Of a stretch of 64,000 nucleotides of DNA, positions 56,301 through 59,028 are shown in pieces. The stretch covers positions 21,943,109 through 22,007,108 of the forward strand of contig OW203764.1 of the NCBI GenBank assembly GCA_934045905.1, written 5' to 3'. The DNA comes from Leuctra nigra (lineage: Eukaryota > Arthropoda > Insecta > Plecoptera > Leuctridae). The notes beneath the pieces are model-generated. The model was not told where the DNA came from, did not search any database, and saw only the letters and a program-made list of their open reading frames with translations. Every line of letters begins with the position of its first letter. Within the stretch, counting starts at the first letter, position 1. Made by a program: the position numbers and the translations under genes.

Positions 56301-59028
56301 ACATTGCAAAAACTTGTTCTTGTTCTCAGGTCGGGATATCAATCTAGACATTCTGCGTGTACAAGGGTATCGATTCTTCTGCAACAAGCTGTGGAATGCT
56401 ACTAAGTTTGCCCTCAACTATCTTGGCACAGATTTTAAACCAGCCTACTCGAACAAGAAAGTGAGTCAAAAAAAGAAGCGATCTAGCCAAAAGAAGTTTT
56501 CTTCTTCTAAGGAGCTGGATACAAAATCTATTCTTTTAAAGCTACAACTTCCCAATCAAAATGCCGTATTTGGTATTCTTGATTCATATCTTGGAGATCA
56601 CTGCTATCTGATTGATTACTCTCCTTCGCAAGTTGACATTTCTGTTTTCGAAGCTGTCCGAGGTGGGGACGGGCTTACGATGGCCTATCCACACTTAAAG
56701 AGGTGGTACAACCACATTTCAAGTTTTGATGTGGAGGAAAAGAAGAAGTTCAAACTTCATTCCAATGGTCTTTTCAAGGTTGGCAACAACCAATTTAAAT
56801 TAATTAGCACTTAGCTTAGCTCCTGCAAGCATGATATGTGCATTTTCTAACAACTGTTAACTGTTAACACGTCTTGGGCATGTTTAGTGCGCATAAATTT
56901 ATAAGTGTTGAAAATCCCCATAGAACTTGTAGTGTAGAAGCACCAAAACGTATGTAAAATTGCTTACACATAAAGCACATCGGTACCTAGTTTTTCCTTT
57001 TTTCATCCTCTGCTCCTAATAGACCACTGTCTATTAGCGGCCATGGGTGTTTACAGGATTTCTGGCGGGGGTGGGGGTGGGGAGGTGTAAGGAAATTTAG
57101 TGCCCCCTCTGCCACATATGGCGTGATTTGATTTTTGAGGTGTATTTTGCTGAAATATTCAATGTTTTAAAATTTGACACTTTGGGGTGGTGGAGGGCAT
57201 GCTCCTACCTTGCCCCGCAGGGCATATTTTGGTTTTTTGGCACTGAAATTAATTTTTTTTAGCTTTTATGTTTACAAAATGTAACTATATGTATAACACC
57301 ACAAAAAATCTATGTTTTCCTGACATCCAGGGAGGAGGAAGCAAGAGGACAGCCCCCCTTCCCCCCCCCCCTCCCTGTGGGCGCCAATGTTAGTGGCTGA
57401 AGGCTGTCTTGCCCAGTGCAGAGGATGCATTGCTAATTGCTATGTTAAATTGTTCAAGGACACACCTGTGCACTTCGTTTGTGCCTTCACATTATAGAGA
57501 TAAAATCCAAGGTCACACCCAATGTTCGAGGTGGATGTGTCTTCTCAAGCACTAGGCTTATGTTGTAGTAAAGCTAGACGTACTGATCTTTGGTCGTAAG
57601 TCTAATGTATTGGGTTTTGAGCAGATGAGCTCAATGTTTTAACAGGATTCGAACTAGGGTCCCCATCCCTTGGACCGTTGCAAAGATACCGTATTTATTC
57701 GCATATATTCCAAATATTGAAATCTCAAAACAGGGATACGGACTATACACGGGTGCGGATTATATGCGAGTAAATACGGTAATTTCAATTAATTTGAATG
57801 AACAACAGTTTCACACAGCATACAAAGTAGAGCAGAGTAGAGTAGAGCACTTTCCTCTATTTGATTCTCACGCATGGCTTTTATTGTGCATCTTGCAGAA
57901 CATAAGCATTCATCTTCTCGATTAAAATAATACTATTTAGAAGCTACCTTACCATTTTAGCGGCCTTGATATTTGTGTTACGGTTATACGACTCCTCTCA
58001 TTGAAACGTTAAGGCTCTCACTTACATTTTCTCCCATTTTCTATATTATTTCAACTGACTTTCTATTTGTTCTTGAAAAAGTCTATTGTACAACTGGGCC
58101 AGCGCACTTGCACAGTACATGTGTTGTTTATCAATATTTGAAGTTCATAGAAGCACTTTTTTTTCAGCTGACTGGAAATGAAACACCAATGGATTTGTGG
58201 ATGCTTAGTCGCATTGCTGCAGCCGTGGAATCTTGTAACAAAGCTTTCGAGACTTACGAATTTCCTTTGGCTACAACCGCTTGCTACAACCTATGGCTCT
58301 ACGACTTGTGTGACGTTTACTTGGAATACCTCAAGCCAGTATTCCAGAGTGCTAATGTAGAGTTGATCTATACTGCCAAGAATACTCTCTACACTTGTCT
58401 ACAGGTCGGTCTCAGACTCCTCTCTCCGTTTATGCCATTCATTACTGAAGAGCTTTTCCAACGACTTCCGAATTCATCCACAAATCAAGCCAGTATTTGC
58501 GTTGCTGCGTATCCAGAAGTCGAAGACTACAGTTGGAGGAACTTGCAAGTTGAAGCTGAAGTAGAATTCATCCAGAAGATTGTGAGGGAAGTAAGGTCTG
58601 CTAGATCAGATTATACTCTCCCTAACAAAGTGAAAACTGATGCCTATGTGCTTTGCTCCGACGATGCTATACCAGCTACGATTCAGAAGTACTTGGCTGC
58701 TCTGGCTACGCTGGCGTACTGTGGTAAGGTGGAGCTCTGCAATTTACCACCCAATGGTTGTGCTGTCCTCACCATTTCCGACAAATGTGAGGTGCACTTG
58801 CTATTGAAGGGATTGATCGAACCAGCCAAGGAAATGGCCAAGATTGAAAAGAAGAGCACTTTGCTTAGTCAACAAATCACCAAGTTGAATCAAGCTATGG
58901 CAGCTGCAGACTATATTGTGAAAGTGCCGGAAGAAGTTCGCCAGAGTAATGCTGAAAAACTGTCCCAAGCAGGTGGCGAGCTTGAACGATTGGCTGCTGC
59001 AATGGCTGCACTGAAAACAATGGAATAA
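50334..59028 (+). CDS. VARS1: Cytosolic valyl-tRNA synthetase
   Basis: Nine coding exons: 50334-50510, 52264-52434, 52524-52651, 52895-53203, 53845-54316, 54393-55154, 55246-55393, 56330-56460 and 58168-59028 (stop TAA). The phases are consistent and the total is 1052 aa. The enzyme joins valine to tRNA-Val. Visible in order: a Lys-rich N-terminal extension of about 75 residues; the class I signature PPPNVTGSLHLGHALT (HLGH at about 143-146); CDHAGIATQ; the CP1 editing domain with TTRVETMLGDTAVAIHP and AHDPNDYDVG (about 385-394); GTRDWCISRQLWWGHRIP; GHDILFFWVARM; KMSKS at 652-656; the anticodon-binding domain from LWLYDLCDVYLEYLKP; and a C-terminal coiled coil (about 985-1052). It lacks the vertebrate N-terminal GST domain. 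No mitochondrial presequence is seen. A second 3' terminus is possible (56461-56814). Confidence 0.96.
50511..52263. other. VARS intron 1
   Basis: 1.75 kb, with no recognised element. Runs of G near 51348 and of C near 51723 mark repeat debris. The acceptor is TTATTTTATAG at 52263. Confidence 0.5.
53204..53844. other. VARS intron 4
   Basis: 641 bp of AT-rich intron. The sequence around 53245-53335 is more GC-rich and looks like a short retroelement fragment (GGAACTCCCACCCC), but no borders could be set. Confidence 0.4.
55418..56254. mobile_element. hAT-like element with perfect 8-bp TSD filling a VARS intron
   Basis: TAGGGCTGGGA (55418) and TCCCACCCCTA (to 56254) are near-perfect inverted ends. 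ATACTCTG is duplicated exactly (55410-55417 and 56255-56262). AAACGTTTAAACGTTT arrays occupy both subterminal regions. An internal tandem repeat of about 126 bp (near 55924 and 56050) explains the duplicated peptide words in the reverse frames. Without the element and one TSD the intron would be about 91 bp. Confidence 0.92.
56461..56814 (+). CDS. Alternative VARS 3' end: eEF1B/GST-C-like domain
   Basis: The frame of exon 56330-56460 stays open through its own donor (AAA|GTGAGT) for 117 codons to TAG at 56812-56814. A Lys/Ser linker (KKKRSSQKKFSSSK) is followed by a GST C-terminal-like helix set with YSPSQVDISVFEAVRGGD and LKRWYNHISSFDVEEKKKF. These match the N-terminal domain of eEF1B beta/delta (PSQ.D..VFEA and RWYNHI.S). 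A second route is a 51-nt mini-intron 56461-56511 with a strong acceptor (TTTTCTTCTTCTAAG), also in frame. Either gives a ValRS of about 866-883 aa without the anticodon domain. A weak in-frame donor (AAG|GTTGGC, 56778/56779) could instead splice to 58168 and insert the domain internally. An eEF1B retrocopy inserted by chance is the alternative; the open frame in phase argues against it. Confidence 0.65.
   Translation: MSQKKKRSSQKKFSSSKELDTKSILLKLQLPNQNAVFGILDSYLGDHCYLIDYSPSQVDISVFEAVRGGDGLTMAYPHLKRWYNHISSFDVEEKKKFKLHSNGLFKVGNNQFKLIST
56815..58167. other. Rest of the last VARS intron
   Basis: It holds C/G-rich repeat debris at 57060-57390 (a C run near 57355) and a small mariner-like MITE at 57687-57781. 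The acceptor TTTTTTTTCAG ends at 58167. Confidence 0.5.
57687..57781. mobile_element. 95-bp mariner-like MITE
   Basis: TACCGTATTTATTCGCATAT begins at 57687 and ATATGCGAGTAAATACGGTA ends at 57781. The ends form an inverted repeat of about 22 bp with two mismatches around a 50-bp centre. Confidence 0.7.

Follow-up and report, generated by a model that had tools for sequence, protein, structure and literature searches.

A predicted optional eEF1-docking module in the valyl-tRNA synthetase gene of Leuctra nigra, with related eEF1B-type domains at other synthetase genes

A human CysRS splice form with a GST domain directed at eEF1γ is said to have been described by Kim in 2000, and a 1995 paper, going by its title, 'Valyl-tRNA synthetase from Artemia', reportedly tied an arthropod valyl-tRNA synthetase (ValRS) to eEF1. 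The CysRS GST domain is tabulated in PMC6321835 as one that 'complexes with eEF1γ', and PMC9166799 gives a CysRS splice variant, with an insert at the GST domain, that inhibits EEF1G. The contact is also described for eEF1B itself, in that structure 5DQS contains both the eEF1B N-terminus and the GST domain at the N-terminus of eEF1γ (PMC10452860), and the introduction of PMC4250081 states that the N-terminus of eEF1Bα binds the N-terminus of eEF1Bγ. Deuterostome ValRS carries an N-terminal GST that holds eEF1 in the eEF1H complex (PMC4394549, PMC10452860), a domain that could, according to PMC4394549, be confined to Deuterostomia. GST-type domains assemble synthetases in the multi-synthetase complex as well (PMC10452860, PMC4394549), and the members of that complex listed in PMC10452860 do not include the synthetases for Val, Thr, His or Tyr. 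PMC4394549 describes the fly complex as containing the same nine synthetases as the mammalian one, so that these four enzymes are outside both, and the C. elegans complex as including ValRS without any GST domain, so a GST-type domain is not the sole route to assembly.

The 64-kb window (the whole stretch of Leuctra nigra DNA that was analysed) contains a complete gene for cytosolic ValRS, whose top match in the PDB is valyl-tRNA synthetase 1gax_A (E=2.3e-172). Every splice site in the exon model is GT-AG, and the model has no internal stops. From the ATG at 50334, the N-terminus is a Lys-rich stretch without an N-terminal GST, in agreement with the first-pass annotation of this DNA, which had claimed that ValRS lacks such a domain. 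That annotation had also pointed to an open frame behind exon 8, and the corresponding features are as follows.

50334..59028, plus strand: cytosolic ValRS gene, 9 coding exons, 1052 aa
50334-50510, 52264-52434, 52524-52651, 52895-53203 and 53845-54316, plus strand: ValRS exons 1-5
54393-55154, 55246-55393, 56330-56460 and 58168-59028, plus strand: ValRS exons 6-9
56330..56460, plus strand: ValRS exon 8, the end of the catalytic core, with an ordinary donor AAA/GTGAGT at 56460/56461
56461..56511, plus strand: 17 codons rich in Lys and Ser (VSQKKKRSSQKKFSSSK) that separate exon 8 from the GST-C domain and, if translated, would form a linker
56512..56778, plus strand: 89-codon segment for the eEF1B-type GST-C domain, with both ends in phase 0 and an alignment core at 56575-56751
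56779..56814, plus strand: 11 extra codons and a TAG stop, used solely under intron read-through
58168..59028, plus strand: ValRS exon 9, the anticodon-binding domain and C-terminus

Several other features of the window were noted by eye. In ValRS intron 7, a stretch of ~90 bases is present twice in direct order (55927-56145), and intron 8 contains an inverted-repeat element at 57680-57790 (taccgtatttattcgca ... gcgagtaaatacggta) that is perhaps a small DNA transposon. Long frames at 21072-22280 (minus strand), 35940-37142 (minus), 36876-39026 (plus) and 39087-40649 (minus) resemble reverse transcriptases of the LINE type and an endonuclease. Several further minus-strand frames lie at 33402-46151, and these we take to be perhaps an APC5-like gene. 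Outside the window, the 17.6-kb contig C144 of this genome bears mitochondrial genes, identified by eye, whose order corresponds to the ground pattern of arthropods.

Beyond the exon 8 donor, the frame of the exon stays open for 117 codons up to a TAG at 56812-56814. Stops occur in the ValRS introns at a rate of 0.062 per triplet, which gives 117 open codons a chance of 5e-4, and behind the other seven ValRS donors the frame remains open for only 4, 2, 1, 1, 9, 7 and 28 codons. The donor, the 117-codon frame and the motifs that had been read from it were all confirmed in the sequence. When compared with 177,635 distinct PDB sequences, the domain matched human eEF1B (5dqs_D) at E=7.7e-10, with the runner-up at E=0.81. 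It also scored 24.6 bits against Pfam GST_C, above the cut-off of 20.7, and matched GST C-terminal models alone. These matches uphold the eEF1B type that had been claimed for it. The domain shows the pattern Y, Y-x-PS, D, H, RW, H, S, and 12 columns are invariant across the five domains of this kind in the genome. A profile built from all five found human eEF1B at E=1.1e-24, although this profile contains the genome's own eEF1B, which favours that match. Thus, the N-terminal domain of eEF1B (EEF1B2, 5DQS chain D) is the best PDB match both for the domain alone and for the five-domain profile. The GST-like domains of the multi-synthetase complex (MetRS, GluProRS, AIMP2 and eEF1E1) are alike in being of GST type and in assembling synthetases, but they match the profile more weakly than eEF1B does (eEF1E1 at 1.3e-6, GluProRS at 1.2e-4). 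A single-sequence AlphaFold2 run on the 117 residues failed to give a usable model (mean pLDDT 45.8), and the fold assignment therefore rests on sequence. No match to the domain was found in a set of 5.8 billion proteins, which may be poor in animal proteins and so does not inform on rarity.

A domain of this type could stand alone, as it does at the start of eEF1B, and might then be part of a separate gene nested in the ValRS intron. We regard this as very improbable. There is no in-frame ATG ahead of the domain in 56290-56814, the sole Met being inside the domain, and tblastn of the 64-kb window with an eEF1B2 sequence found only 56575-56739 (E=2.5e-10; all others E>=3.9), with no further part of eEF1B, whether acidic linker or exchange domain (EF1_GNE).

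The earlier reading stood as to domain identity, frame and the lack of an N-terminal GST; its view of the ValRS domain as a single case did not, because the domain is one of a set found at the ValRS, ThrRS, HisRS and TyrRS genes. In the 536-Mb genome, a first search (E up to 0.001) gave one further match, the first exon of ThrRS. That locus was first taken to be an eEF1B gene, until its neighbouring exons identified it as ThrRS. With the ThrRS exon as query, five places were listed at E<=1, comprising ThrRS itself, ValRS (2.3e-8), eEF1B (6.4e-8), TyrRS (5.9e-5) and HisRS (0.049). Apart from eEF1B, each of the five lies at a synthetase gene and on the strand of that gene. The TyrRS exon found 11 places, namely itself, ThrRS (9.6e-5), ValRS (5.3e-4), HisRS (0.0016) and seven weak matches (E 0.2-0.9), and eEF1B was absent from the 11. 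The seven weak matches have the look of a repeat family, and the one inspected is unrelated to the domain. At least four synthetase genes therefore have a domain sequence inside or next to them, and the loci are listed here together with that of eEF1B.

L003:489-740 (G000:C2:39906988-39907239): first exon of ThrRS with an eEF1B-type domain and an ATG of its own, its phase matching that of the ThrRS body
L019:1423-1746 (G000:C13), minus strand: HisRS domain exon of 324 nt, phase 0-0, splitting the WHEP domain
L026:9696-9938 (G000:C8), minus strand: TyrRS domain exon with ATG, ~4.9 kb upstream of the TyrRS start exon
L030:4771-5630 (G000:C1): true eEF1B gene, with acidic linker and exchange domain present
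L030:8366-9615 (~3 kb downstream of the eEF1B gene) and L032:4601-5825 (C13): further exchange-domain exons

We take these synthetase genes to be ThrRS, HisRS and TyrRS on the strength of the human proteins, by which the ThrRS and HisRS exons were placed and TyrRS was identified from its exon translations, the TyrRS exons being traced through the catalytic part only. The ThrRS domain exon has an in-frame stop upstream and ends in a donor CAG/GTGAGC, in phase with a Lys-rich second exon that contains an in-frame ATG; TGS and catalytic exons then reach nearly to the C-terminus. In HisRS, the domain exon has a good donor (9.6) and a CAG acceptor behind a pyrimidine-rich stretch. When this exon is skipped the WHEP domain reads ...KEDKTK-IADEVSKLL..., and when it is included a 108-aa insert splits WHEP; the HisRS exons beside the domain run nearly to the C-terminus. 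The TyrRS domain exon could join the exon of the ordinary start in phase 0, through a weak donor (4.4), and an inverted duplicate sits between these two exons. The domain exons are of phase 0-0 in HisRS and in the ValRS candidates, and run 0 to 0 into the following exon in ThrRS and TyrRS. All four synthetase gene models, which were drawn from sequence alone, also work without the domain.

The eEF1B gene interrupts its domain with an intron after SYAEG, and the four synthetase copies are without that intron. Identities between the domains are 28/70 for ValRS and ThrRS, 37/70 for ThrRS and eEF1B, 26/74 for TyrRS and HisRS, and 22/73 for ValRS and eEF1B. The synthetase domains are likely old, because they diverge so much from one another. 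The ValRS, ThrRS, HisRS and TyrRS domains are most likely optional modules that would dock these synthetases on eEF1γ, the partner predicted for them by homology. Unlike eEF1B, the ValRS domain sits in a synthetase gene, and its 22 identities in 73 residues with the genome's own eEF1B exclude the near-identical retrocopy that had been named as the alternative in the first pass.

We also scored codons with a measure trained on ValRS exons versus ValRS introns. The ValRS domain scored +0.066 per codon in frame, and -0.150 and -0.209 in the other two frames. It falls between the 183 overlapping intron windows, which reached -0.083 at most, and the 49 exon windows, which ranged from +0.148 up, these comparison windows being the training sets themselves. 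Such an intermediate score would suit an untranslated, decayed copy of the eEF1B domain inserted in the ValRS intron, as would the position of the domain behind a strong ordinary donor. In a simulation of neutral decay to the same DNA identity, 328 of 5000 copies likewise kept an open frame free of stops; none of the 5000, however, retained as many residues as the ValRS domain (26/56 observed, maximum 22). The retained residues are concentrated at conserved sites, defined as those at which the ThrRS domain and human eEF1B have the same residue. The ValRS domain keeps 21/31 residues at these sites and 5/25 at sites where the two differ (Fisher p=4e-4). Moreover, the reading frame continues that of exon 8, the sequence is far from near-identical to eEF1B, and open, phase-compatible exons of the same kind are present at three other synthetase genes. 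Against this evidence, a decayed copy is improbable. Between the ValRS domain and the ThrRS exon, dN was 0.59 and dS was 2.0 and 18.7 by two methods (NG86: none computable), estimates from which we regard dS as saturated. Within the one genome covered, the analysis speaks for a ValRS domain that would have been under constraint for long, over a span that includes time before its arrival in ValRS.

These observations bear on our main reading, to which we assign a probability of about 0.58, that the 117 codons provide an optional eEF1B-type docking module of ValRS, joined by a predicted in-frame splice and serving as a tether to eEF1. The candidate signals in intron 8 are as follows.

56511..56512, plus strand: candidate acceptor TCTAAG/GAG, AAG type, weak, 12/15 pyrimidines
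56778..56779, plus strand: candidate in-frame donor AAG/GTTGGC, weak, phase 0 into exon 9
56892..57926, plus strand: poly(A)-signal-like hexamers past the stop, with CATAAA at 56892 and 56969, GATAAA at 57499, AGTAAA at 57567 and 57769, AATGAA at 57797 and ATTAAA at 57921

Two arrangements would join exon 9 in phase 0, with exon 8 extended to 56778 or with a separate exon at 56512-56778. For the separate exon, 56461-56511 would have to be removed as a 51-nt 'intron' with AAG at its end, a trinucleotide found at none of the eight ValRS acceptors, which end in TAG or CAG; the pyrimidine content before 56512 (12/15) resembles that of ValRS's own acceptors (10-13). The codon score of 56461..56511 is +0.217 per codon, a value from just 17 codons. 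The donor at 56778/56779 lies in frame, as had been claimed, but it is weak, scoring 4.3 on a donor matrix and ranking 14th among the 98 GT sites in intron 8. By comparison, the eight donors of ValRS itself score 5.0-9.4, with 8.9 for that at 56460, and the donor of the TyrRS domain exon scores 4.4. Use of 56778/56779 in place of 56460/56461 would lengthen ValRS to 1158 aa by adding the domain and a Lys-rich linker, and omission of the domain would leave the ordinary 1052-aa enzyme.

No weak splice site is required if exon 8 is instead read through to the TAG at 56814, the frame being unbroken through linker and domain up to this stop, and the transcript is ended by intronic polyadenylation. 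The result would be an 883-aa protein in which a docking domain at the C-terminus follows the catalytic and editing domains and the anticodon-binding domain is missing; at eEF1 it might act as a regulator or decoy. A precedent is the EPRS1 variant from alternative polyadenylation given in PMC9166799, and variant hexamers that include ATTAAA at 57921 lie downstream. We nevertheless favour internal insertion, because the ThrRS and HisRS domains adjoin nearly complete sets of enzyme exons, because the 11 codons past 56778 look non-coding (a score of -0.438, intron-like, in a very small sample), and because 56815-58167, the remainder of intron 8, contains no AATAAA and offers just CATAAA near the stop. 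The variant hexamers count against insertion, as does the weakness of the 56778 donor relative to the strong one at 56460 (4.3 vs 8.9). The read-through form is thus a serious, if rather unlikely, rival, and insertion is at least as likely.

Internal insertion would place the domain, in frame and by optional splicing, behind the catalytic core of ValRS and ahead of its anticodon-binding domain. The inserted domain may then tether ValRS to elongation factor eEF1 and hold Val-tRNA near eEF1A. The human CysRS splice form is alike in that an eEF1-associating domain is added to a synthetase by alternative splicing, which is predicted here, but it differs in the enzyme and in the site. For an in-frame insertion of the CysRS type, ValRS has candidate sites of phase 0-0, but its 3' donor is weak. 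Deuterostome ValRS is the same enzyme with a GST-like appendage; it carries a cGST at the N-terminus, whereas the L. nigra gene has the C-terminal helical half only, at an internal position. The proposal that ValRS uses the same solution with the domain placed elsewhere is strengthened by the like domains at ThrRS, HisRS and TyrRS. Among the titles and abstract openings returned by searches of open-access literature, none describes an eEF1B-type domain on ThrRS, HisRS or TyrRS.

More tentatively, and with less confidence than we place in the ValRS module itself, these domains could reflect a second, eEF1-based synthetase assembly, in which an optional exon for docking on eEF1γ has spread in this lineage to at least the Val, Thr, His and Tyr synthetases and splicing decides whether they dock. 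If so, free synthetases outside the classical complex would be parked on the elongation factor, and tRNA would be handed over directly. Such an assembly would account for a link to eEF1 in an arthropod ValRS that lacks the N-terminal GST. Docking on eEF1 would then be a repeated solution, and synthetases that do not belong to the known complex would have a second place to assemble.
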